From positions 1-22,695 of IMG/VR virus record IMGVR_UViG_3300049846_000669: a stretch of DNA of 22,695 bases, one strand, 5' to 3'. Below are positions 4,750 to 22,695 of this stretch, one piece after another. The notes below the pieces were generated by a model that searched no databases, had not been told where the DNA came from, and saw nothing but the letters and a program-made list of their open reading frames with translations. The stretch comes from a virus. Numbering within the stretch: position 1 is the stretch's first letter; every line of letters begins with the position of its first letter. The translations under genes and the position numbers were made by a program.

Positions 4750-6162
4750 ATGAGGACGGCCCTGTACGCACGGGTGTCCACCGGCAGCGAGGAACAGGAA
4801 CAGGCCTTGCAGCAACAGCTGTCTCGGCTCCGTCAAGCGGCTGGCGACCACCCGACCACCGAATACATCGACATCGCCAGCGGCAGCCGCGACGACCGGC
4901 CGCAGCTCCAGGCCATGCTCAAGGCCTGCCGCAGCGGTCAGCTTGATCGGGTCATCGTCACCCGGCTTGATCGCATGAGCCGCAGCGCCTCGCACGGCGC
5001 CCAGCTGCTCACCTATTTCTCTGCGCCGGATACGCCCAGCCTGCTGGCACTGGACGACAGCCTGGACTTGGCCACGATCGGCGGCCGGCTGGTGGCGCGG
5101 ATGCTGATCAACCTGGCCCAGTCGGAAACTGAGCGGCTGAGCGAACGGATCATTCACGGCAAGCAGCACCAGCGCAATCAAGGCAAACCGTTTGGCCCTT
5201 ACCCGCCCTACGGCTACCGCTGGAACGCCGATCGCAGCAACTACGAGCTGGACCCCGAAACAGCACCGCTGGCCCGCGCCATCGTCGAGCACTTCCTGCA
5301 GACGCAACGGCTGCGGGAGACGTTGGCCTTTGCACGGCAACAACTGCGCTGCCCATGGCGCAGCACGGCAGGGTTGTCTACCTGGCTGATGAACCCGTCG
5401 CTGATCGGGAGCCGTTGCTACGGCAAGACCGAACTGGTGCGCGATGAGCAAGGGCAGCTGAAGCGCCGTTCACGGCCCTTCGGCACCTACGCGCAGGTGA
5501 TCCCCGACTGCCATGAGCCGTTAATCACCCAACAGCAACACCTTGAGATCCGTGCGGTCTTCAGCGACAACGCCAACCGCAAGCGAGCCGGCCTGCGGAC
5601 CAAGCGGGTGCGCGAGCTGACCGGGCTGGTCAAATGCGGGCACTGCCAGCACACGATGAGCTACGCGTTCTGGCGCAAGGGTGCGGTGCCGGTTCTGCAA
5701 TGCACCCATGCAGCGTGCAGCTGGGGCCGGCGCAACCGGATTAAGGCCGAGGTGGTGTCAGCAGCAGTGTGGCAGATGCTGCAGGCCAACTGGCAGGTGC
5801 TGGAGATGGTCGAGACCGGCCATGCGGCTAGGGCTGGCAAGCGCTGCAGCGAGGTGGACCGGTTGCTAGCGACCATCCGTCAGTTGCAGGAGCTGAACGA
5901 CCCGGATCTGAGCGAGGTGATCCAGCGCAAGCTCAAGCGGCTGGAGGTGCTCATGCAGGACGTTACCAAGCGGGAGCTGCCGTGGGATATGGGCGAGCTG
6001 CGGCAGGCACTGACGGATGAGCGGTTCTGGGAGGTGGCGCGATCCGATGCGGCAGTTACGCGTCAGCTGTTCACCGATCTGGTGGAGCAGGTGGTGATTA
6101 AGGAGAAGGGTGTGGCAGGTGTGCAGCTGCGGGTTGGCGGTGATGGCGCTGCCGCTCCCTAG
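4750..6162 (+). CDS. Large serine recombinase (phage integrase)
   Basis: A 470-aa site-specific recombinase that would integrate and excise the phage by a serine-linked strand exchange. The N-terminal resolvase domain shows YARVS with Arg8 and catalytic Ser10, GSRDDRPQLQAML, and RLDRMSRS with Arg72/Arg75. A long helix (about 118-140) leads to the recombinase domain (GPYPPYGYRW). A zinc ribbon follows, with Cys296-x2-Cys299 and Cys318-x4-Cys323, and then a helical C-terminus with likely coiled-coil content. Length and order are typical of large serine integrases. It appears to be expressed from a leaderless promoter. The gene is not at the edge of the element seen here and I find no attachment site nearby. 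Confidence 0.95.
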   Translation: MRTALYARVSTGSEEQEQALQQQLSRLRQAAGDHPTTEYIDIASGSRDDRPQLQAMLKACRSGQLDRVIVTRLDRMSRSASHGAQLLTYFSAPDTPSLLALDDSLDLATIGGRLVARMLINLAQSETERLSERIIHGKQHQRNQGKPFGPYPPYGYRWNADRSNYELDPETAPLARAIVEHFLQTQRLRETLAFARQQLRCPWRSTAGLSTWLMNPSLIGSRCYGKTELVRDEQGQLKRRSRPFGTYAQVIPDCHEPLITQQQHLEIRAVFSDNANRKRAGLRTKRVRELTGLVKCGHCQHTMSYAFWRKGAVPVLQCTHAACSWGRRNRIKAEVVSAAVWQMLQANWQVLEMVETGHAARAGKRCSEVDRLLATIRQLQELNDPDLSEVIQRKLKRLEVLMQDVTKRELPWDMGELRQALTDERFWEVARSDAAVTRQLFTDLVEQVVIKEKGVAGVQLRVGGDGAAAP

Positions 6163-6885: not shown

Positions 6886-6905
6886 GTGCCGCGCCGATGC
6901 GGCAC
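6886..6905 (+). promoter_or_regulatory. Perfect hairpin at the expected mRNA 5' end
   Basis: GTGCCGC (6886-6892) and GCGGCAC (6899-6905) form a perfect 7-bp stem with a 6-base loop. The stem starts about seven bases after the -10 at 6874, so it would sit at the very 5' end of the transcript and leave about 16 bases before the ATG at 6922. Such stems can protect mRNA from decay. There is no U-tract, so it is not a terminator. Confidence 0.5.
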
Positions 6906-6921
6906 CCGATACTCCGCACCC

Positions 6922-7617
6922 ATGACCACCGACATCCCGAATCTGGGAGGGGTCATCACGCCCGATGACATCTCCACCAAAGGCACAGGCAGCTACGCAG
7001 CTGACTATGTGAACTGGGCGAAGATCGCCCATCTGCTGCATGTCCATGCACCTGGCTGGCAGTTCCAGCTGGTGCAGGACCCCTACGGCAGCCATGTTTG
7101 GAAAGCCCCCGATGGCACGGGTTATGTCGTCGGGTGCTTTGTCAACGGTGAGCAGCGCACGCCGGACTTTCCCCAGGCGTGCATGGACAACCGCAACAAC
7201 CCGATCGCGGTTGATCGGATCACGGCCCGCACGCTGACCGACACGCATCGCCGTTGCCTCTGCACAGCGGCTGCGTTCACCTTTGGCTTGGGCTACGAGC
7301 TATGGGCACGGGTTGAGGTGGAAAACCCGATGCGTGACGACGAGCCGGCTAGTCCTAGCAAGCCGCAAGCTGTCAAGGCCGTGCCGGCCAAGAAGGCACC
7401 CGGCAACCCCGTACCCGGCGGCGATCGCCTGAGCGTTGCCGAAGTGCAGGATCTGGTGCAGGCCGTCGTGAAGCTGAGTGAAGAAAAGCGGGCCGGTGTT
7501 GTGGCTGCTTTCCAAGAACACTTTTGCCTGCCAGCGGACAAAAAGGCCGCTGACTACATCAAGACCGCCGCGCACCGCGACTTCCTGATGGCGCAGATCC
7601 ATGCCGCAGCCGCCTGA
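6922..7617 (+). CDS. Single-strand annealing protein, Sak3/DUF1071-like
   Basis: A 231-aa protein matching the pattern of the DUF1071 (Sak3-type, Rad52-like) phage annealing proteins, which pair complementary single strands during phage recombination. The core runs from YVNWAKIAHLLHVHAPGW through the strands around GYVVGCFVNG, to MDNRNNPIAVDRITARTL, then THRRCLCTAAAFTFGLGYELWAR. The last segment corresponds to the family's R-x-L-x-K-A-x-A-x-x-G-L-G signature. An Ala/Pro/Lys linker (about 135-160) precedes a small helical C-terminal domain. ATG 6922 fits the domain start; a GTG at 6886 lies inside the leader hairpin. It likely partners with the RecB-like exonuclease (964-1843). Confidence 0.7.
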   Translation: MTTDIPNLGGVITPDDISTKGTGSYAADYVNWAKIAHLLHVHAPGWQFQLVQDPYGSHVWKAPDGTGYVVGCFVNGEQRTPDFPQACMDNRNNPIAVDRITARTLTDTHRRCLCTAAAFTFGLGYELWARVEVENPMRDDEPASPSKPQAVKAVPAKKAPGNPVPGGDRLSVAEVQDLVQAVVKLSEEKRAGVVAAFQEHFCLPADKKAADYIKTAAHRDFLMAQIHAAAA

Positions 7618-9227: not shown

Positions 9228-10130
9228 ATGTCTGTCGGCTCCCTTGATTGGCTCCTCCAGCATTCGCACAACTACCCTCTGCTCACTGGCGAGCAGGAAA
9301 TCATCTACAACCGCCACGTCCGGGAATGGCTAGCCCTGCGGGATAAGGCCAACCCGACCAAGCGTGAGCAGGCTGTGATCCGCCGTGGCAAACGGGCCTA
9401 CGACCGCTTCTTCATGTCCAACATCCGTATGGTTGTTCACCTCGCTCAGCGCTACCGGCGCTTTGTTGGGGCATTGACGCTGGAGGACATGACGCAGGAA
9501 GGCCTGCTTGGCCTGGAGCGGGCCATCGTCAAGTTTGACGCTACTCGCGGCTACAAGTTCTCTACCTACGCCTTCAACTGGATAAGGCAGTCCATCAACC
9601 GCTCCATCAGCAGCAAGTCGCGCATGATCCGACTGCCGGACAATGCGATCCAGTCCATCAAGAAGGCCTTTGACTACATGAACGAGTACAAGCGGAAGCA
9701 TGGGCACCGTCCGACGCTTGCACAGATTTCGGAGCACTGCAACATCAGTCAGCACACCCTGCGGGCATATATGCCGCACGGTGCGCCGGTGATCAGCTTG
9801 GATGAGCTGTGCTGCAATAACCGAGAGGATGCCTCAACCTTGCTAGAGCTGATCGCTGACGCGAACAACACCAATGAAGTGGATATGTTTGCTGAGCAGG
9901 TGGATCAGCTGCATGAGGCTATTGGCGGGCTGAATCCGATTGATCGTCACATCCTCGACAGCCTCTACTACGGCGTGGATGGCGCACCGATCAGCATGAG
10001 GCAGATTGCCAGCGAGGTGGGCATCACCCGTCAGGCAGTGGCCCAGCGGCACAATGCCACGCTGCGCCGTCTGCGCCTCAAGCTTGCTCAGAGAGGGCCG
10101 CTTGACACTCCAGCGCTGCAATGTGCTTAG
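9228..10130 (+). CDS. Phage-encoded RpoD-type sigma factor
   Basis: A 300-aa sigma factor of the sigma70 group 2/3 type abundant in cyanobacteria. It would redirect host RNA polymerase to its own promoters. Region 1.2-like sequence is at 5-40. Region 2 spans 56-135, with the core-binding NIRMVVHLAQRYRR and LTLEDMTQEGLLGLERAI, then the -10-reading YKFSTYAFNWIRQSINRSI. Region 3 runs about 140-215. Region 4 spans 233-287, with the -35-reading helix-turn-helix ISMRQIASEVGITRQAVAQRHN. All regions are present, so it should be functional. Its start is 12 bases past an intrinsic terminator, with no visible Shine-Dalgarno sequence. The likely targets are the late genes on the opposite strand. The end overlaps the convergent gene by 53 bases. 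Confidence 0.93.
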   Translation: MSVGSLDWLLQHSHNYPLLTGEQEIIYNRHVREWLALRDKANPTKREQAVIRRGKRAYDRFFMSNIRMVVHLAQRYRRFVGALTLEDMTQEGLLGLERAIVKFDATRGYKFSTYAFNWIRQSINRSISSKSRMIRLPDNAIQSIKKAFDYMNEYKRKHGHRPTLAQISEHCNISQHTLRAYMPHGAPVISLDELCCNNREDASTLLELIADANNTNEVDMFAEQVDQLHEAIGGLNPIDRHILDSLYYGVDGAPISMRQIASEVGITRQAVAQRHNATLRRLRLKLAQRGPLDTPALQCA

Positions 10131-10907: not shown

Positions 10908-11078
10908 CTAGGCAGCCTCAGGGCCGTCGTCTGACTCGCGGGCCAGCCACTCACGGGCATAGCTCTCGCTGTAGCTCATGAACGTGATCTGATTCGCATA
11001 GGCGATCCACAGCACTGCACCGGTGTCGCGTTGCAGACGGATCAGGCCGGGGGCGATCTCAGTGCTGATGCCGTTCAT
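10908..11078 (-). CDS. Hypothetical 56-aa protein after endolysin
   Basis: Starts in an ATGA overlap with the endolysin stop. The product (STEIAPGLIRLQRDTGAVLWIAYANQITFMSYSESYAREWLARE) looks like a compact strand-strand-helix fold without a signal peptide. Its position in the lysis cassette suggests a lysis accessory or regulatory role, but nothing in the sequence defines it. Confidence 0.6.
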   Translation of the reverse strand: MNGISTEIAPGLIRLQRDTGAVLWIAYANQITFMSYSESYAREWLARESDDGPEAA

Positions 11079-12259
11079 GGGTTGGCAATGATGGCCCAGC
11101 CGTCGTTGCCCTCAACCATCCATCGAGGCCCCCAGTTCTTGCGGGAGTAGGCCAGGCCAGCGCCGCGAGTGCCGGCATAGCTGCCTTCGGCTACAAGCAT
11201 TTCGCCGAATGGATCGTTGACGATCACAGCCGTGGGCGTGGTGCCGATGACGATCAGCCAGTGGCCACCACCCGATGGTGCGGTGCTTGGGCCATGGTGC
11301 AGAAACCCGCATGGCACCGGCACACCGCGTGCAATCTGCTGCTCTAGGTCTGCCCAGGTGCAGTTCTGGCGGAACTTGGCACTGATGCCGTAGTGAGCCA
11401 AGGCCTTGAGCTGTGCCTGCGCATCGGTGGTGTCGCCATACTTCAGCACCGTCTGGAGGTACTGGTCATCCGCGTTGGCTCCGCTGAGCTTCCCAGGCCG
11501 CAGGTAGGCCACGAGCATGGCGCAGCTGCTGCTGAAGCACATGCGGTTGGCTTGACCAGCCACCTGGCTGTCGTGCTGGCTGTAGTACGGCACCTTCAGC
11601 GGACCAAGCGCACCGCTCTGCTGCACAGGCACACGACCAGCGTTGCAGAACAGATCAATCTCGGCTTGCCGGCGCCGCTCTAATCCAGCCAGGACGGCCT
11701 CACCAGCATGGACCCACTTGGCCAGCTCCTGCCGCACCACGGTGCAGGGCTCCTCACCCTTCAGCAGCCGCTTGCGCAGTGTTGAGTCTTCAACTGCGGC
11801 CAGACCGACGTTGTAGGCAAAGCTGATCAGCGCAGCGATGCGATCCACGTGCCAACCACGGGCCAATGGCAGCAGCTGCAGCACACCTGGCCCAAACAAC
11901 GTCTCCACATCGTTGACCAGCAACTCATCAGCCATGGCCTGGCTGATCTTGTCGCCCTTGCGCACCGGTGAATCCAGATAGCGCGTGGTGCCGTAGCCAA
12001 TCGTCCACGGTGCGCCACCGGTCCCAGGATCTGGGTAGGCCTCCAGCTTGCAGCCCTCAAACGCTTTGATGATCTTCAGCGCGGGTGCCACCCAACCAGG
12101 TGGTGGCAGTGCCTTGGGTGGTGGATCAGCGCGGTACAGCTCCGCAAACTCATCAAGCTGATCAACAGTGAGCTGCCCTTCCAGCCAGTTCCAAGCTGCC
12201 AGCTGATGACTGAGAGCCTTGTAATGCTTGGCTGCATCAGCTAGGCGGATGCTGGTCAA
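11075..12259 (-). CDS. Endolysin: GH24 lysozyme fused to C39-like peptidase domain
   Basis: A 394-aa enzyme with two probable cell-wall-degrading domains. Residues about 55-205 are a T4-type GH24 lysozyme with Glu68 (KAFEGCKLEAY), Asp77 and Thr86 (PWTIGYGT), which cleaves glycan strands. Residues about 222-394 match papain-fold C39-like peptidases: YYSQHD, Cys241 in MCFSSSCAML, His333 in GGHWLIVIG and Asn/Asp348-349 in VNDPFG. A short N-terminal helical region (1-50) precedes both. There is no signal peptide, so it depends on a holin. The start is TTG, overlapping the upstream stop as TTGA. The peptidase may cut peptide crosslinks; its substrate is not shown by sequence. Confidence 0.88.
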   Translation of the reverse strand: MTSIRLADAAKHYKALSHQLAAWNWLEGQLTVDQLDEFAELYRADPPPKALPPPGWVAPALKIIKAFEGCKLEAYPDPGTGGAPWTIGYGTTRYLDSPVRKGDKISQAMADELLVNDVETLFGPGVLQLLPLARGWHVDRIAALISFAYNVGLAAVEDSTLRKRLLKGEEPCTVVRQELAKWVHAGEAVLAGLERRRQAEIDLFCNAGRVPVQQSGALGPLKVPYYSQHDSQVAGQANRMCFSSSCAMLVAYLRPGKLSGANADDQYLQTVLKYGDTTDAQAQLKALAHYGISAKFRQNCTWADLEQQIARGVPVPCGFLHHGPSTAPSGGGHWLIVIGTTPTAVIVNDPFGEMLVAEGSYAGTRGAGLAYSRKNWGPRWMVEGNDGWAIIANP

Positions 12260-14301: not shown

Positions 14302-15711
14302 TTAGGCAAAGGAGCCGGTGGTGTCAGCAATCTGACGCACGGTGTAAAAGCTGCCGGCTTGTGGTGTCACCGAGCCGGCGCCGGCGGTCGCCTGCAACTT
14401 AAACGTGGTTGTAAGGTTGGTGATGACCACCACCTTGAACTCATACACCATATATGCGTTGTTGCTGATTGATCCGGTAGCGCTGAATGCAGCAGTTGTA
14501 GCGCCTCTAGAACCGGTGTAACTCGTTTGAGGCGCACCCGCAACAATGCCAGTAAGCGGTCCAGAGCGATATAGCCCGTTGATTAACGTAGGTGCGCTAG
14601 AAGCCGTAAGTGTCCAAGTTATCGTTCCAGCTGTTGTTGTCTTTTGCAGGTACGCTAGCATTTCAATGTCGTAGACACTGTTGGCTGCCAAGTTGATCGC
14701 ACTGGTGGCGCCAAAGTAGTCGGCAATGGTGGTAATAGAAGTGCCGTTGGATGTCAGGCGGAACGTCTGCCGCGAAGAAATCTGACCCCGGCCGCTGGTG
14801 GTGGTTGGCGTGCTGTAAAAATGCGTGCCGTCGTATTCGATCGCACCGGCGATAGGTGTGGTGAGGTTGGTGCCAGCAGAGAAATCAAGCGGCGCAACTG
14901 TTGCCGTACCCGCTGGCGGCTTGATGGTCTTGCTAAACGTGGCGTCGTTAGCGCTGATCGTCAGCGCGTCCGTTGTCTCAGAGTTGTAGACAAAGCGCAG
15001 GTTATTAGCTGTTGTAGTGCCTATCGCTAGCGGGCCGGTCGTGCTGGTGAGATAAACAGCGTTGGCCGCAGAAAGGGCTCCACTACCGGTAAACGTCGAG
15101 CTGTTGATGCCGAAGTTGCCGTAGTACGTGGAGTCTGTTGAGACGTCATTGCAGACCACAAAGTCGGTCGAAGCACCAGCGTTGTTGCTGGTGTTCTGCA
15201 GAATGACTTGGTAGTAAGACGTCTGCGAAGACGTGAAGTTAGCGCCCATGCGAGCGCCGCTGAATCCCAGCGTGCCAACCGAGAGCAGACCGTTGCTGGT
15301 GGTGGCTGGGTTGAGGCTGCCGGTCAACGACAAGGCTTGGTTGGCCTGTGAGAATGTGTTGAGACTGGTAAAGGTATTAGCACCCGCCAATGTCACGTCA
15401 CTAGCAGCGCCCTGCGGGCCAATACCTGGCGCACCTGTCTCCACCCACTGGCTGCTGGTGCCATCGTTGAGATAGACGTACTCAATACCGCTGCTGGTGT
15501 CAAACCACGCATCCCCACTGGTGGGTGAGCTGGGGGCTGTGGCGCTGACGGTGTACGCCCCACCCCCAGAGCCACCGATCTGCACCATTGTGCCGGCAGC
15601 GTTTTTGACGTAGAGCTTTCCGTTCGTGCTGTCCCACGCGGGTTCGCCCTCAACGAACGAGCCCGCCGTAGGTGCGCCGGAACCTCGGCGCAGACGGATC
15701 GTGTTAGCCAT
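14302..15711 (-). CDS. Tail fibre protein (469 aa)
   Basis: Residues 1-48 (NTIRLRRGSGAPTAGSFVEGEPAWDSTNGKLYVKN) match the virion-attachment module of Mtd-like tail fibres. A short collagen-like stretch (GAPGIGPQGAA, about 93-103) precedes a Thr/Ser/Asn-rich stalk. The last 120 residues, with alternating hydrophobic strands (NAYMVYEFKVVVITNLTTTFKL), look like a beta-sandwich receptor-binding head. It overlaps the upstream fibre gene by one base (TAATG). The shared N-terminal module with the next fibre suggests duplication and divergence. Confidence 0.82.
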   Translation of the reverse strand: MANTIRLRRGSGAPTAGSFVEGEPAWDSTNGKLYVKNAAGTMVQIGGSGGGAYTVSATAPSSPTSGDAWFDTSSGIEYVYLNDGTSSQWVETGAPGIGPQGAASDVTLAGANTFTSLNTFSQANQALSLTGSLNPATTSNGLLSVGTLGFSGARMGANFTSSQTSYYQVILQNTSNNAGASTDFVVCNDVSTDSTYYGNFGINSSTFTGSGALSAANAVYLTSTTGPLAIGTTTANNLRFVYNSETTDALTISANDATFSKTIKPPAGTATVAPLDFSAGTNLTTPIAGAIEYDGTHFYSTPTTTSGRGQISSRQTFRLTSNGTSITTIADYFGATSAINLAANSVYDIEMLAYLQKTTTAGTITWTLTASSAPTLINGLYRSGPLTGIVAGAPQTSYTGSRGATTAAFSATGSISNNAYMVYEFKVVVITNLTTTFKLQATAGAGSVTPQAGSFYTVRQIADTTGSFA

Positions 15712-17114
15712 TAGAACGTGCCGCCATCTACGGTTGATCCATCAGACAACAGTGTGCCGCTAGTTGGCAACGTCACGCTGGTGCTGGCTGTCACCGTGAA
15801 CGTGGTGCCAAAGGCGCCGCTAAAGGTCAGCGCACCAGCCGTCAAAATGTTGCCGCCCAGTGTGATGGTGTTGCTGTTGCTGACACCTGTGCCGCCGTTG
15901 GCTGCAGCAAGGGTGCCGGCCAATGTCACAGCACCGGTGGTGCCCGTAGATGGTGTCAGGCCAGTGGTGCCGGCCGAGAAGGAACTAACCCCGCTCCCCG
16001 CGCTACTGAACTGGTTAAAGGTCAGTGCGGTGCCGCTCGCGCCACCAATCGTGATCGGGTTGTTGGTGGCCAGCACCCAACCACTGTCAGCGTTAGTCGT
16101 ACCCTCTTCAACAAACGCAAATGCCCCGGCAGTGACCTCGGCATCGGTGTCAAAGTCGGTGGCTCGATCCCAGACACCGTTGGCACCCGTGCCGAGGGTG
16201 CTCACAACCCAGATGCCGTTCTGGGCACCGGTGGTCTGGTTTTTGAGCAGGATGCGGTCGTTCGCAGCAAGTGTCACGCCATCAAGCGTGTTGGGTGCTG
16301 CAGTGATCTGGCCGCGAGTGCTGGTGCCGCCAGTCGCGGAGTAAGTAACGGTGACGTTGGCCGTGCTCGCCGCACGCACCGACTGCTTCACATCAAGGCC
16401 ACTGCGGGCCGCATCGACGTACCCCTTGTTGGCCGCGTCGGTGTCCAGCGTCGGGGTCGCCAGGTTGGTGATCTTGAAGCCACCCAGCGAAATATCGGCC
16501 GTTGCAGTGCCGACTGACGACAGCGTGGGGTTGGCGTGAACGTGATCAGCGCGGGCGTACCGGGTTGAGGTGCCAACAGCAGCGCTGCCCAGTGCCGCTG
16601 GAGTCGCTGACGCCGCTTGACCCAACACAAACGCTGTGGTGGCGATCTGCGTGGTGTTGGTATCTACGGCTGCCGTTGGTGCAGCGGGGGTGCCGGTGAA
16701 CGTCGGCGACGCCAGCGCAGCCCGGCTGGTGTCGGTCGGGTGGACGTGATCCGCTCGGGCGTACAGGTTGCTGGTGCCCGCGGCTTGTGTGCCGTTGATC
16801 GCGATGGTGCCCGCCGTGCTGTTGGCTTGACCGAGCACGAACGCCGTGGTGGCGATTTGCGTGGTGTTGGTGTTAGCCGCAGCTGTCGGCGCAGCCGGCG
16901 TGCCAGTAAAGGTGGGGCTGGCTAACGGGGCACCCCAGCCAGGTCCGGCAATCGCTATACAAGCGGTCGCTGACCCGCCAGCGCCACCAGTTCCTTTGCC
17001 GTAATAGAGCGTGTCATCCTGCTCGTTGTACGCGAGTTCGGCGTTGGCCAGCGAGCTAGGAGCACCAGCTGCGCCGCCAGCAGCACGGCGCTTGATCCTG
17101 AGGGTGTTAGGCAC
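15711..17114 (-). CDS. Tail fibre protein with 70-residue repeats (467 aa)
   Basis: Residues 1-45 (NTLRIKRRAAGGAAG...LANAELAYNEQDDTLYYGKG) match the fibre attachment module also found in the neighbouring fibre. Two near-identical blocks with SPTFTGTPAAPTAA and TNTTQIATTAFVLGQA lie at residues 65-97 and 135-167, each followed by an YARADHVH element. These are typical of trimeric fibre shafts. The end (TVTASTSVTLPTSGTLLSDG) resembles common fibre C-termini. GTG 17114 is the start. The 46-base gap upstream has a hairpin. Confidence 0.82.
   Translation of the reverse strand: MPNTLRIKRRAAGGAAGAPSSLANAELAYNEQDDTLYYGKGTGGAGGSATACIAIAGPGWGAPLASPTFTGTPAAPTAAANTNTTQIATTAFVLGQANSTAGTIAINGTQAAGTSNLYARADHVHPTDTSRAALASPTFTGTPAAPTAAVDTNTTQIATTAFVLGQAASATPAALGSAAVGTSTRYARADHVHANPTLSSVGTATADISLGGFKITNLATPTLDTDAANKGYVDAARSGLDVKQSVRAASTANVTVTYSATGGTSTRGQITAAPNTLDGVTLAANDRILLKNQTTGAQNGIWVVSTLGTGANGVWDRATDFDTDAEVTAGAFAFVEEGTTNADSGWVLATNNPITIGGASGTALTFNQFSSAGSGVSSFSAGTTGLTPSTGTTGAVTLAGTLAAANGGTGVSNSNTITLGGNILTAGALTFSGAFGTTFTVTASTSVTLPTSGTLLSDGSTVDGGTF
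16614..16712. repeat. Fibre repeat, second copy
   Basis: Encodes residues 135-167 of the fibre, identical at the protein level to residues 65-97 except for two residues (AANTNT versus AVDTNT). The DNA has drifted at many wobble positions. Confidence 0.75.
16824..16922. repeat. Fibre repeat, first copy
   Basis: Encodes residues 65-97 of the fibre; partner of the copy at 16614-16712 with a 210-base period. Wobble differences indicate the duplication is old or under protein-level selection. Confidence 0.75.
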
Positions 17115-17123
17115 GGCGAACGG

Positions 17124-17145
17124 CTAAAGGCTTTGCTGCCTCTAG
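17124..17145 (-). other. Intergenic hairpin before repeat fibre gene
   Basis: On the minus strand CTAGAGGC and GCCTTTAG pair as an 8-bp stem (one G-U) with a 6-base loop. It lies in the 46-base gap between 17161 and the GTG at 17114. There is no U-run long enough for a firm terminator; it could be a processing or stability element. Confidence 0.35.
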
Positions 17146-17160
17146 ATTTCCTGCCCTCCC

Positions 17161-17451
17161 TCAGAAATGGCCACCATCGGTGATGGTCACAAGCGTGTTG
17201 ATGTCATCCCCTAGCCATTTATCTCCACCTGCGTCGAAGTAAAGGATGCTCTTGTCTACTTTCTGTGTTACATCAACATCACTCAGGGCTGCCAGCGTAG
17301 ACACGCCACTGGTGCCAGGCGCACCCTGAGGACCAGCTGTTGCCACCTCCACCACTGCTGGCTGCGATGGCGCTGTCAGCTCAATGACGTTGACCGCAGT
17401 CTCGGCGACCAGCACCTGCTGCGTACCAATGATCTCAACGGTGTTGCTCAT
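17161..17451 (-). CDS. Small collagen-like virion protein
   Basis: A 96-aa protein with strands in the first third (VEIIGTQQVLVAETAVNVIEL), a short collagen-like GPQGAPG, then STLAALSDVDVTQKVDKSILYFDAGGDKWLGDDI, a pattern common in phage fibre shafts. It ends DGGHF, like the DGGTF end of the next fibre. Starts by ATGA overlap with the upstream gene. Confidence 0.75.
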   Translation of the reverse strand: MSNTVEIIGTQQVLVAETAVNVIELTAPSQPAVVEVATAGPQGAPGTSGVSTLAALSDVDVTQKVDKSILYFDAGGDKWLGDDINTLVTITDGGHF

Positions 17452-17795
17452 GCCGGTGCCGAATAGCCCTCACTAGGCCGAGCAATGCCTTCGAGGTAAT
17501 ACTCACGCAACCCGCTGGGGTTGATCAGCATCACGTCGTAGTAATACTCCGATGCTGTCATCGCCGCAGTCACCGTGTACGGCAGCTTCAGCGATACCTG
17601 TCCGTTGGCCGCGCTGGTCACCGTCACCGTGAAGTCGCCTGTCTTGACCGTTCGAGCCTTGTCCCATACCTGCGCAACGATCTGCCAACCAGTCAGGTTG
17701 ATGGCTGTGCCAGTGCTGTCCTTAAACGTCACTGCCAACGGGTAGTCCGCTTGCCGTTGGGGACGGATGTTAAAGCTAGCCGGTGTAATCGCCAT
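17448..17795 (-). CDS. Virion protein, BppU N-terminal-like
   Basis: A 115-aa strand-rich protein: DYPLAVTFKDSTGTAINLTGWQIVAQVWD, then GQVSLKLPYTVTAAM, then YYYDVMLINPSGLREYYLEG. This pattern is found in baseplate/receptor-binding N-terminal domains of many phages (BppU-like). Probably a connector between baseplate and fibres. ATG 17795 follows the previous stop by 16 bases that contain AACCTAG. Confidence 0.7.
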   Translation of the reverse strand: MAITPASFNIRPQRQADYPLAVTFKDSTGTAINLTGWQIVAQVWDKARTVKTGDFTVTVTSAANGQVSLKLPYTVTAAMTASEYYYDVMLINPSGLREYYLEGIARPSEGYSAPA

Positions 17796-17811: not shown

Positions 17812-18213
17812 TCAGCCTGCGATCTTGTCCGGGTTGGTCTGCAGGTCTACACGCATCTGATGCCGTGGTCCAACGCCCTGCGGTACGTTAATGCTCACCG
17901 CATTGCTGCCGGGATACGCCCACAGCAGTCTGCCCGCAATCTCCTGTAGGTTAACGCCGGTCTCGGTCCACATCACCAGATATAGAGTCCAGCGGCTAAA
18001 GGCGTGTTCCTTACTGTACTGACGTATCGGCACCAGTTCCGGCTCGCGCAGGATCACGCATTCCAGCCCCGTTACCTGCGTGCCAGCTGGCAGGCTGCCG
18101 CCCACATCTCGCACCGAGATTGCCGGCGTGGTCGCGCCATTGGCCAGTGTGTAGACGCCGAGAACATCAACAAGCGTGGTCTCCAGCTCGGTGCGCAGGC
18201 TGAGGATGTTCAT
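17812..18213 (-). CDS. Hypothetical 133-aa virion-region protein
   Basis: Begins NILSLRTELETTLVDVLGVYTLANG and continues with strands (CVILREPELVPIRQYSKEHAFSRWTLYLVMWTETG). The size and profile are those of small head-tail or tail-terminator-type proteins, but I cannot name it. ATG 18213 was chosen because the longer frame to 18468 reads as Cys/Trp-rich shadow sequence. It overlaps the frameshift-fusion gene by 47 bases. Confidence 0.7.
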   Translation of the reverse strand: MNILSLRTELETTLVDVLGVYTLANGATTPAISVRDVGGSLPAGTQVTGLECVILREPELVPIRQYSKEHAFSRWTLYLVMWTETGVNLQEIAGRLLWAYPGSNAVSINVPQGVGPRHQMRVDLQTNPDKIAG

Positions 18214-18862
18214 AACCCGAGGTTTCCGCCACGAGCAGCAAACCTGATTCAAGCCACCCGGCCAGCGGTCGTTTGGGGATCTGCACCACATAAGTGGCCA
18301 ATGGGCGGTCAAGGTCGCGCAAGGTGAAGCACCCTGCAGCGTTGCCGCAGGTGGCCACCAGCCCGCCACGGATGTTGCGGCCCTCCCACACTGGGCACAG
18401 CACCCAAACCCGATCGTCATCACTGCGCAGGGCGCGAACGCTGGGAGGTCTGGCGCTGTCGTTGGCACTAGCTAGAACCTCGTTCCAAGCAGCCAGCACA
18501 ATTGGTGGGGCTTTGCCTTCGTGGCGCAGGGCCAAGGCGGTAGCTGCCACGTCAGGCGGCAACTTGGCGGAGGATTCCTCGCGTTGACGGAACAGCGCAA
18601 AGTCGGCTGGCGCGAATGCGTTGCCCTTCTTTGGGTCGCGGTTGATGTTGGCCGTCAATGCCGCAAGGCTGGCCACCGGTAACTCAGCGAGGGCCATTTC
18701 CTCGCGCTTCAGCTTCTGCAGTGCCCGCCAGGCATTTAGCACCGTCACCCGCAACTCAGTGGCATAGGTGTTGCGCTGAAACTGGTTGGGGAACCCTCGA
18801 CTTAGCTCCCAGAAGAGCGCCGACCAGTCCGTGGAGTCTTCTCGTGCTTGGCCGGCTGCGGC
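18167..18862 (-). CDS. C-terminal extension made by -1 frameshift (gpGT-like)
   Basis: An open frame of 231 codons that continues without a stop from the slippery site of the preceding gene. A shift of -1 at AAAAAAG appends it to the first 175 residues of that protein, giving a 406-aa fusion. It reads AREDSTDWSALFWELSRGF just after the junction, then helical sequence with several Trp. It has no good start of its own (a TTG at 18754 is the first formal one, without a ribosome site). The arrangement matches lambda G/GT tail chaperones; the sequence family itself is not one I recognise. Confidence 0.75.
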   Translation of the reverse strand, partial: AAAGQAREDSTDWSALFWELSRGFPNQFQRNTYATELRVTVLNAWRALQKLKREEMALAELPVASLAALTANINRDPKKGNAFAPADFALFRQREESSAKLPPDVAATALALRHEGKAPPIVLAAWNEVLASANDSARPPSVRALRSDDDRVWVLCPVWEGRNIRGGLVATCGNAAGCFTLRDLDRPLATYVVQIPKRPLAGWLESGLLLVAETSGYEHPQPAHRAGDHAC

Positions 18863-19386
18863 TTTTTTAGATCGTCCTCAGACGGTTGGCTGCTGGGCAG
18901 ATCTTCGGCTGCCTGCTCATCTTGTGCCAGCGTCCAGAAGGCATCAAACAATGGTTTCGCCATTTGCCGCGTTTCCTCCAACCCCCAGTGGGGCAGATTG
19001 CAACGGGAGCGCACCAAGGCTGTCACCGTGACCTCCTGCGTGATCTGGCCAGCCTTGGCATAAATCCGGCCCACCTCCGCAATCCGCTCGGCATGACGCA
19101 GGCGGATCGCATCAGCATCTACTTCTAGGCTGCGACCTGAAATTGCCGACTCAATAATCTGAAATGCCTCTGTGAGCGAGATGCCTTCCTCTTTGGCGAT
19201 CGCATCAGCAATCTGCGCACCCTTAACAAAGGCATTCTGCTCGTCAGCTAGTAACTCAGAGATCATTGCAGATTCGCCTACTGTCAGCCCGCCACGTACC
19301 TCAACCTCCAGTTCACCTACCTTTGCGTTGCCTAAAAGACGCTTTTGCATCGGCACCGGTGGGGTGATAAATGGAAGCAGTGCCAT
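18802..19386 (-). CDS. Tail assembly chaperone-like protein, short form (gpG-like)
   Basis: A 194-aa acidic, helical protein. It starts with VGELEVEVRGGLTVGESAMISELL, similar in layout to tail-chaperone N-termini, then FVKGAQIADAIAKEEGISLTEAF and QEVTVTALVRSRCNLPHWGLEET. It ends in a Pro/Lys/Ser tail encoded after the frameshift site. Short-form chaperones bind the tape measure during tail assembly and are left out of the virion. No tape-measure gene is seen in this window, so the role is inferred from the frameshift organisation. Confidence 0.75.
   Translation of the reverse strand: MALLPFITPPVPMQKRLLGNAKVGELEVEVRGGLTVGESAMISELLADEQNAFVKGAQIADAIAKEEGISLTEAFQIIESAISGRSLEVDADAIRLRHAERIAEVGRIYAKAGQITQEVTVTALVRSRCNLPHWGLEETRQMAKPLFDAFWTLAQDEQAAEDLPSSQPSEDDLKKPQPAKHEKTPRTGRRSSGS
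18862..18879 (-). promoter_or_regulatory. Programmed -1 ribosomal frameshift site
   Basis: The zero frame reads CTA AAA AAG, that is the classical heptamer A AAA AAG at 18868-18862. GAGGA (18879-18875) lies six bases upstream as an internal Shine-Dalgarno-like stimulator. Downstream, CCGGCC and GGTCGG can pair as a 6-bp stem with one G-U. The -1 frame is open for 231 codons. Confidence 0.85.
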
Positions 19387-19392
19387 CTGTTG

Positions 19393-19524
19393 TTAACCCT
19401 TGTTTGCAACTTGTGCGATAAGCTTAGCGTCGTTTGTGCGGCGCAGGAAGCTGTAGCGGTTGGCCTGAACCAACAGCTGCACTCGCTGGAGCAGGGCCTG
19501 TTGAGTTTTGCTGGCTGCGTTCAT
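19393..19524 (-). CDS. Hypothetical 43-aa basic protein
   Basis: A small gene that starts in a TGATG overlap with the LamG-like gene stop and ends six bases before the chaperone start. The product (QQALLQRVQLLVQANRYSFLRRTNDAKLIAQVANKG) is basic and helical. The packing on both sides supports coding. The function is unknown; it could be a small assembly factor. Confidence 0.55.
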   Translation of the reverse strand: MNAASKTQQALLQRVQLLVQANRYSFLRRTNDAKLIAQVANKG

Positions 19525-20582
19525 CAGAGGTTTGGCGGTGGGGTGAAGTTCGTCGTCCACCGGCAGCTCTCTTCAAACTTGACGCCGTGGACTAAGACCG
19601 CTTGCGGCGGATCGGTGCGTGAAACAGTGTGGCCGAACGACACGTTGATGCTGGTTGAGCCGCTAGCTGTTGCGACTTGAACCGTGGATAGCCCAGTAGC
19701 GCTGGTGCCCAGCAGCACCCCGTTGAAGAACGCATAGGCTGAGCCGTCCTTAAAGGTCATAGCAGCGTGATGCCATACCCCAGGGCTCATATCGGGGGCG
19801 GCTGTGCTGCCGATTGGAACATTGCTGATCTCATAGGGTGCTGGCACGTTCGGGCGGTTGTATAAGCCGCTTGCCAGTCCGTACAAAAAGCGCTTGGTAG
19901 GGTCGCCGCTGGTGGTATCCAATCCAAAAGCCATCACTAATCCAGCAAAGTCAACCAACACCTCCGGCCAAGTTGAAGTCGCTACGAACGTGCTACCAAG
20001 CTGAAAGAACAGCTGAAAGGTAAACTGACGCACGCTACGGTTGGCACGGAGGCCGATCCCGCTAAAGCTCAGCGTTGGGAAATTGAGGTCTTGACTTCCA
20101 AGCTGCGTATTTCTGGAGCTGATGGCGGGTGCGTTATTTGGGCCTCCAGTAGCGAGATACGTGGGTCTGCCTAACCCTGCGGAATTGCTGGTGCCTGATG
20201 TCAGAGGTGATGGGTAGCCCGCTCGTGTTTGCAGTGGGAACACCGCTTGGGCGTAGGGAGCAAACCACAGGTTGGCGTTTGGTGGCTCAGTTGGACGCAG
20301 GAACCAATATCCCAGAGGGCGTAACACGCCAGGCTCCTCCTCCAGTGGCTGCCGCCCGAATGGGTCGGCTTGTGCTTTGACAATCTTGTCGCTGGTGTCC
20401 ACGCCGTTTAGGCGCCTGAGCTGTTCCCGCTGTACCTCCGCCTGCTCTGCGACCTTTCTGCGGTTATCACTTTCCAATTTCTGCAGACGGTTGGCCTCCA
20501 TCTGGGCTTTAGACTTTTCCAGCAGACTGGTGCTATCTGCGCCGCTGCGACCGTCAACGACGACATTGATCGTCGTTGACAT
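19524..20582 (-). CDS. LamG/concanavalin-like virion protein
   Basis: A 352-aa protein. Residues 10-65 form a coiled coil (LLEKSKAQMEANRLQKLESD, then KVAEQAEVQREQLRRL). Residues about 130-350 form a LamG-like jellyroll with the signature GVWHHAAMTFKDGSAYAFFNGVLLGT. This fold binds carbohydrates or proteins and occurs in phage decorations and fibres. There is no signal peptide. It likely forms a trimeric appendage or decoration. Confidence 0.8.
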   Translation of the reverse strand: MSTTINVVVDGRSGADSTSLLEKSKAQMEANRLQKLESDNRRKVAEQAEVQREQLRRLNGVDTSDKIVKAQADPFGRQPLEEEPGVLRPLGYWFLRPTEPPNANLWFAPYAQAVFPLQTRAGYPSPLTSGTSNSAGLGRPTYLATGGPNNAPAISSRNTQLGSQDLNFPTLSFSGIGLRANRSVRQFTFQLFFQLGSTFVATSTWPEVLVDFAGLVMAFGLDTTSGDPTKRFLYGLASGLYNRPNVPAPYEISNVPIGSTAAPDMSPGVWHHAAMTFKDGSAYAFFNGVLLGTSATGLSTVQVATASGSTSINVSFGHTVSRTDPPQAVLVHGVKFEESCRWTTNFTPPPNL

Positions 20583-21454: not shown

Positions 21455-22695
21455 TTAGGCTTGGGTTGGGGCCAGTGCCGCCACCGTGATGTTTGCTGCA
21501 GGTGGTCGCATGTGCCACAGAGCGCCAGGGACGTTCGGCGCCAAAGCTGTGATCGTGACGGTGGCAGTGGCAGGATTAGCGTAGATACCAACCTCTCGTC
21601 CCACCACCGGCACCAACGCCGTGATGGTGCTATCCACGCTTGCTGGACGTACATCCACGCTCGTATCAACGCGTGGTGGCAGAGCAGCAACCGTTGTGTC
21701 ACCACCAAATGGCACCGCAAAACTACTGACCCTGGTGGTCTGAAGTGCCGTGCGAGTGCCAATCGCCACCGCTGTCAGTAGCTCTAGCGCATACGGCAAA
21801 GAGGTCACCTCCATACTGGTGCGGGTTCGACCCTGCGACACCACCGTCTCGTTCCAAGGCGGTACGGGCTCGGTGTAAGTGATCTGTCCGCCAACCACCG
21901 CTGGAGCGCTTGGGAGCTGTGTAATCCCAGGTGCGACCGGGAACCACCAGTTGGTGGAGCCGGTGCCACCGCCAATCGCACCCCAGAACATCGCGTCAGT
22001 GCTGGCGATCACGCCGTTGGCGTCAAACGTCCAGCTGGTGCCGTTCGTCTTGTAAAGCGCCATCACCCCATTGGCTTGCAAAGCCAAGCTGCTCATGGGT
22101 GCAGACGGCATCTTCTCCGGTGCCATCTGCATTTGCATCCCGTGGCGGTTTCCTAGTAGCAATCGGTTCTGAACCCGACCAAAGGCTCGTGCTTTCGCCT
22201 CGGCGTCACTCTTCACCGCTGCGTAGGTCACATCTGGGCAGGTGCCGGTACGGACAAAGGTGTCATCCGGCGCATAGGGCATGGAGAAGGTTGTGACATC
22301 AGTGGCGTAGGTCGCACCGCTCACATAGGTAGTTTCAGAGACGCTCTGCTGTCCGTAGCCCGATTTACCGCTGCCTGGTGGTGGAGGGGCAGCATCACCC
22401 GCTTTCAGTCGAGCTGCCTCCTCAGGGTCTTTTTTCGCCAAAGCGTCCAGCAATTTGTCGCTGGTGCTGGGGCGGCGCTGTAAAAACGCCTCTCTGCCGG
22501 TTGCAATCCGAAGTTCCGACGACCCCCAGACGACCCGCAATGCTGCATCGGCATAGTCGGCAATCCACTCGCCGTTTTGCTGTCGCAACGCAATGTCCTG
22601 CTGACCACGCTGCGTCTCGCCATAGCTGACGTAATACTGCGTCTCTACCTTTGTGGTTGGAGCCTGATATAGCTGTCCATTGCTCAAGACTTGAC
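21455..22695 (-). CDS. Large virion protein, 5' end cut by window edge
   Basis: At least 410 residues. The first formal start here is TTG 22687, but the frame is open to the window edge, so the true start may lie outside. The N-terminus (QYYVSYGETQRGQQDIALRQQNGEWI) is followed by a Pro/Gly linker, a variable middle with a Trp/Gly-rich part (MFWGAIGGGTGSTNWWFPVAPG), and a C-terminal third of repeated strands (TTVAALPPRV, STITALVPVV, VTITALAPNV, ITVAALAPT). These short repeats look like a beta-stack in a tail or fibre protein. I cannot assign a specific family. Confidence 0.7.
   Translation of the reverse strand, partial: QVLSNGQLYQAPTTKVETQYYVSYGETQRGQQDIALRQQNGEWIADYADAALRVVWGSSELRIATGREAFLQRRPSTSDKLLDALAKKDPEEAARLKAGDAAPPPPGSGKSGYGQQSVSETTYVSGATYATDVTTFSMPYAPDDTFVRTGTCPDVTYAAVKSDAEAKARAFGRVQNRLLLGNRHGMQMQMAPEKMPSAPMSSLALQANGVMALYKTNGTSWTFDANGVIASTDAMFWGAIGGGTGSTNWWFPVAPGITQLPSAPAVVGGQITYTEPVPPWNETVVSQGRTRTSMEVTSLPYALELLTAVAIGTRTALQTTRVSSFAVPFGGDTTVAALPPRVDTSVDVRPASVDSTITALVPVVGREVGIYANPATATVTITALAPNVPGALWHMRPPAANITVAALAPTQA

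Follow-up and report, generated by a model that had tools for sequence, protein, structure and literature searches.

The window, which is the whole stretch of 22,695 bases analysed here from an IMG/VR virus record, very probably encodes a tail assembly chaperone pair like lambda G/GT, made by a programmed -1 frameshift and lying at a displaced position. Judged from the conservation of its site, programmed -1 frameshifting at this locus is nearly certain, and once the frameshift is granted, a role of the pair as tail assembly chaperones is highly likely. Pairs of this kind are already known; what is new is the displaced position, a G family that had not been recognised, and a slippery heptamer that toggles between two states.

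The 0 frame of the pair is a 194-aa open reading frame on the minus strand (18802..19386, stop TAA at 18804-18802), for which homologues were found and which encodes the putative tail assembly chaperone G. The slippery heptamer A AAA AAG lies within it at 18862..18868 (minus strand), in register as CTA AAA AAG (18870-18862). In the -1 frame, a TGA at 18880-18878 closes the frame just upstream of the heptamer, after which it stays open until the TGA at 18169-18167. The T frame, read in -1 after the shift (18167..18868, minus strand), comprises 231 residues that form a helical domain and a C-terminal beta domain. The predicted products are thus 194 aa without the shift and 175 + 231 = 406 aa with it. 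The preliminary description of this DNA had the coordinates and phase of the heptamer, the lengths of both products and the 231 open codons of the -1 frame right; its statement that the -1 frame has no start of its own is nearly true but not strictly so, as a TTG at 18754 opens a 195-aa ORF in that frame. This TTG lies past a conserved W..FWEL segment that begins right after the shift, so that a start there would lose the segment.

The lambda proteins G and GT form a chaperone pair that works in trans, with G coating the tape measure protein and T recruiting the major tail protein; in lambda-type systems G is in large excess over GT, and both are absent from the virion. In the window, most ribosomes would make the 194-aa G, while a minority would slip from AAA AAG to AAA AAA at the heptamer and go on in the -1 frame to make the 406-aa GT. 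We infer this slippage and its rate from the register of the heptamer, the open -1 frame and the comparisons that follow. By analogy with lambda, G would coat the tape measure protein, whose gene would lie upstream and outside the window, and T would recruit the major tail protein, likewise in trans.

Homologues of both frames were gathered from viral contigs, one contig of a bacterial bin and named cyanophages, a comparison that the preliminary description had proposed as a check on the heptamer. The junction carried a heptamer in phase in all but one (82) of the 83 distinct homologous loci with both frames, and it was of only two kinds, A AAA AAG or G GGA AAG, the latter in about half of the relatives; T lay in the -1 frame of G in all 83. 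The heptamer was retained down to about 20-30% protein identity and was also found in phase in the distant named cyanophages PSS2, S-CBS2, S-CRES1 and S-CRES3. Both heptamers are documented as -1 shift sites and are shift-prone in bacteria (PMC5009743). When 79 distinct homologous G genes were scanned, 16,019 codons in all, no in-phase copy of either heptamer turned up away from the junction, so that the near-universal presence of one there is far above chance. Homologues in which the genes are separate, each has its own start and the slippery site is missing had been named beforehand as the finding that would speak against a frameshift; a search for them turned up a single degenerate site. 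In this sole exception, L117 (L117:6743-6800), G GGG GAG stands at the same place (CTG GGG GAG TAG, with GGAGGAG upstream), and the frames still overlap in the same -1 relation.

The state of the heptamer has changed repeatedly. On a tree of 76 sequences, built by a quick method with the slippery site itself excluded, it changed 10 times, with at least 8 of the changes on well-supported branches. Each switch exchanged AAA and GGG as a block, and no intermediate between the two forms was present among 79 sites. Upstream of the heptamer, gap-free sequences from the window's family varied most at third positions of the 0 frame; within the overlap, the maximum shifted to 0-frame second positions, equivalent to third positions in the -1 frame. 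Both frames are under constraint. The conserved and repeatedly replaced heptamer argues strongly for the proposal that a -1 frameshift joins two tail-assembly frames by the logic of lambda G/GT, to which the Phage_tail_T matches described below add a little. Across all homologous loci, the distance from the heptamer to the 0-frame stop took only a few values (10-13, 55-58, 67-70 and 115-130 nt), indicating that the short tail of G after the site comes in discrete lengths.

Two stimulators had also been pointed out in the preliminary description, an upstream SD-like motif and a possible downstream stem. The SD-like GAGGA is present at 18875..18879 (minus strand) and is frequent in the window's family; GAGG is invariant at -11 to -8 in 27 representatives, and the codon at -11 is GAG in 35 cases and GAA in 4, with a GAG:GAA ratio of 485:284 elsewhere. 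However, when synonymous codons were shuffled, the SD-like affinity was no higher than the amino-acid sequence predicts, and selection of the motif as an SD is not supported by this codon control. The motif is mostly absent from the S-CBS2 group. Downstream folding in the window's family had a mean z of -0.25 to -0.32, the same as in control stretches within T (-0.28), and the stem was rejected as a conserved stimulator because it folds no better than these controls; folding was slightly stronger in the S-CBS2 group (z of -0.8 versus -0.4 in the control). Neither the stem nor the SD-like motif is established as a stimulator.

Comparison with known proteins gave little for G and a weak signal for T. 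The window's G had no match in Pfam or PHROG at E 0.1, hhalign of the G family with lambda gpG returned a probability of 0.2 percent, which indicates no relation, and a search of the PDB with the G model gave nothing below E 0.7. The -1 domain of the window scored 22.1 bits against Pfam Phage_tail_T (PF06223, lambda gpT), below the curated cut-off of 25.9; of 18 homologues, 14 had a -1 domain that matched the same model, the best at E 2.5e-5. In hhalign, T and seven lambda-T relatives shared a 32-column match at P 0.06. Homology of T to lambda gpT, as judged by pairwise and profile comparison, is not convincing. AlphaFold gave confident models of both parts, with two strands and a helical bundle for G (pLDDT 86.7) and a helical part followed by a C-terminal beta domain of about 80 residues for T. 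The best matches in BFVD were F4YCJ6, A0A346A5Z9 and A0A510E8E6 for G, and C7F4B1, A0A346A5Z8 and A0A510E8J5 (rank 4) for T; the paired accessions suggest two further phages with both parts. A structural match in BFVD to a "Pre-tape measure frameshift protein G" reached only E = 1.0. From its sequence, the pair would work like G/GT in genetic design, and its belonging to the lambda G/T sequence family is not established.

Just upstream of G, a small 43-aa ORF (19393..19524, minus strand) is conserved in relatives at about 35-62% identity; there it often overlaps the start of G as TGATG, which suggests translational coupling of the two. It is preceded by a 352-aa gene with a LamG/ConA-like domain (19524..20582, minus strand; weak Laminin_G_3 match), the same neighbour as in relatives, and by the 3' part of a large tail-tip gene (21455..22693, minus strand), inside which the window ends and which in relatives lies between the tape measure side and G. 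After T comes a 133-aa gene (17812..18213, minus strand) whose counterpart in relatives forms the N-terminal part of a longer reading frame, that of a long tail-fibre protein. The tail-fibre genes beyond it (14302-17795, minus strand) for the most part have no counterpart in the nine mapped relatives, which do share the genes on either side; from the comparison, this stretch appears to be a variable fibre region. A phage lysozyme fused to a C39-like peptidase domain follows (11075-12259, minus strand). On the plus strand lie a sigma-70 family factor (9228-10130), whose closest counterparts in the phage collection are those of the cyanophages KBS-S-2A, S-CBS3 and S-CBS1, a Sak-type single-strand annealing protein (6886-7617; PF06378, E 3.7e-7) and a large serine recombinase with resolvase, recombinase and zinc-ribbon domains (4750-6162), which suggests a temperate phage. 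The homologues and the sigma factor, closest to those of Synechococcus phages, point to a picocyanobacterial host, and the phage probably infects freshwater cyanobacteria.

Near-complete relatives carry, in order, terminase, portal, capsid, adaptors, major tail protein, two opposite-strand genes, tape measure, tail-tip genes, the LamG gene, G/GT, fibres and lysozyme. The tape measure was assigned in relatives by position, length and N-terminal form, and by the similarity of one member to the annotated tape measure of S-CRES3. It lay upstream of G/GT in all 42 window-type loci that had one within reach, whereas in S-CBS2-type loci the major tail protein lay downstream of G/GT in 22 of 22 and the tape measure downstream in 19 of 19, all three counts including overlapping loci from the same contigs more than once. 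In both groups G/GT is thus outside the canonical slot between major tail protein and tape measure. The absence of a tape measure after the pair, which the preliminary description had found unusual, is true of the window and is explained by this order: the gene is not missing from relatives but lies upstream of the pair, and as the window ends inside the tail-tip gene, its own tape measure would lie beyond 22695.

In relatives of the window's family, the slot between major tail protein and tape measure is occupied by two inverted, opposite-strand connector-like genes, and no other gene pair fitting the chaperone role was found there. These genes were seen at L032:19275-20000 and L037:6668-7533 (contigs G001 and G002) and also in G005, G006, G007 and G009. 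Their codon-position bias supports the minus frame, and they are related to S-CBS2 gp013-gp014, clearly so for gp014 and more weakly for gp013, which has better matches in PSS2 and L148. In S-CBS2 itself, gp013-gp014 are on the same strand, directly before G/T.

The pair resembles lambda G/GT in its two overlapping frames with -1 slippage near the 3' end of G, in the G GGA AAG of its relatives, which is lambda's heptamer, and in the weak match of the -1 domain to Phage_tail_T. It differs in that G has no sequence relation to lambda G, T is longer and has a C-terminal beta domain, and the order V-G-T-H of the lambda record is not kept, the pair here being outside the slot between major tail protein and tape measure. 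Closer counterparts are the cyanosiphoviruses S-CBS2, S-CRES1, S-CRES3 and PSS2, which have homologous G and T frames with an in-phase A AAA AAG or G GGA AAG; unlike in the window's family, the pair in S-CBS2 and S-CRES comes before the genes for major tail protein and tape measure, and its heptamer is directly followed by the 0-frame stop. The retrieved records of these four phages give two separate ORFs, with no frameshift annotation seen. In S-CBS2, the genes flanking G/T carry an annotation as structural proteins and G and T carry none of this kind, the pattern to be expected if the two are chaperones and leave the virion, and the S-CRES T is annotated as a tail assembly protein. S-CBS3 and KBS-S-2A, cyanosiphoviruses with a sigma factor related to the window's, also have an in-phase -1 heptamer, A AAA AAC, but their pair is in the canonical slot and is not homologous to the window's G/T. 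In S-CBS3 (L156:12346) the heptamer and open -1 frame lie just before the annotated tape measure, and in KBS-S-2A (L157:34092) before a gene of 2.8 kb that is presumably the tape measure. By sequence and position both would be canonical chaperone frameshifts, and the retrieved annotation of the two phages has no frameshift feature. In the haloarchaeal siphoviruses HCTV-1, -2 and -5, g-t frameshifts use heptamers that differ between the three viruses (PMC5009743), much as they do among the relatives here; the hosts are other ones.

The most serious alternative, though an unlikely one, is that the frameshift is real but G/GT are no chaperones of the tape measure, and that it yields, at a constant ratio, two versions of a component of the tail tip or fibres or of a factor for fibre assembly. 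The window's family does have the pair past the tail-tip genes, with the LamG-domain gene on one side and the tail-fibre genes on the other; G shows no homology by which a chaperone could be recognised, and T has its beta domain. However, in S-CBS2/S-CRES the pair is not near the fibres, every S-CBS2-type locus tested has major tail protein and tape measure downstream of it, and the annotation of the S-CRES T, the Phage_tail_T matches and the lack of another chaperone candidate in the slot between major tail protein and tape measure all argue for tail assembly chaperones. We infer the chaperone role from these points together.

Production of T without any frameshift, by ribosomes that re-initiate past the 0-frame stop or start at an internal TTG or GTG, is very improbable: such codons do exist at +114 and beyond, counted from the heptamer, and T is a gene of its own in some records, but the first ATG, GTG or TTG of the T frame is beyond the conserved post-shift segment in 66 of 79 loci, and a separate start would not keep a heptamer in phase at nearly every junction. 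Runs of A6 can cause transcriptional slippage and one is present at the site; slippage of RNA polymerase rather than of the ribosome is nevertheless even less probable, since G GGA AAG, which is not a homopolymer, replaces the run at the same place and phase in so many relatives. A sequencing or assembly error or a decayed gene, conceivable for an A6 homopolymer in a single metagenomic contig, has a negligible probability and is refuted for the family, since 83 distinct loci, cultured phages included, show this frame relation.

Programmed -1 frameshifting of a displaced chaperone pair is thus the preferred reading. Beyond it, with a chance that we put somewhat short of even, the pair may belong to a line of cyanophage chaperones without sequence relation to lambda G. 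The frameshift cassette of this line would be a self-contained unit, acting in trans, that has changed its place within the late operon, and its site may toggle between exactly two heptamers (AAA/GGG) because intermediates of partial slipperiness would disturb the G:GT ratio. No earlier report of this cyanophage frameshift was found in the literature searched.

Tail chaperone genes are usually identified from their place immediately ahead of the tape measure. In these phages, gene order and sequence have changed while the slippery site stayed nearly invariant, suggesting that selection keeps the frameshift and not the position. In the retrieved cyanophage records the two frames stand as separate, mostly hypothetical ORFs, and the site offers a position-independent route to finding and correctly annotating these genes in cyanophages. 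The repeated swap between two heptamers is in addition a natural experiment on how tightly the ratio of the two products is held.
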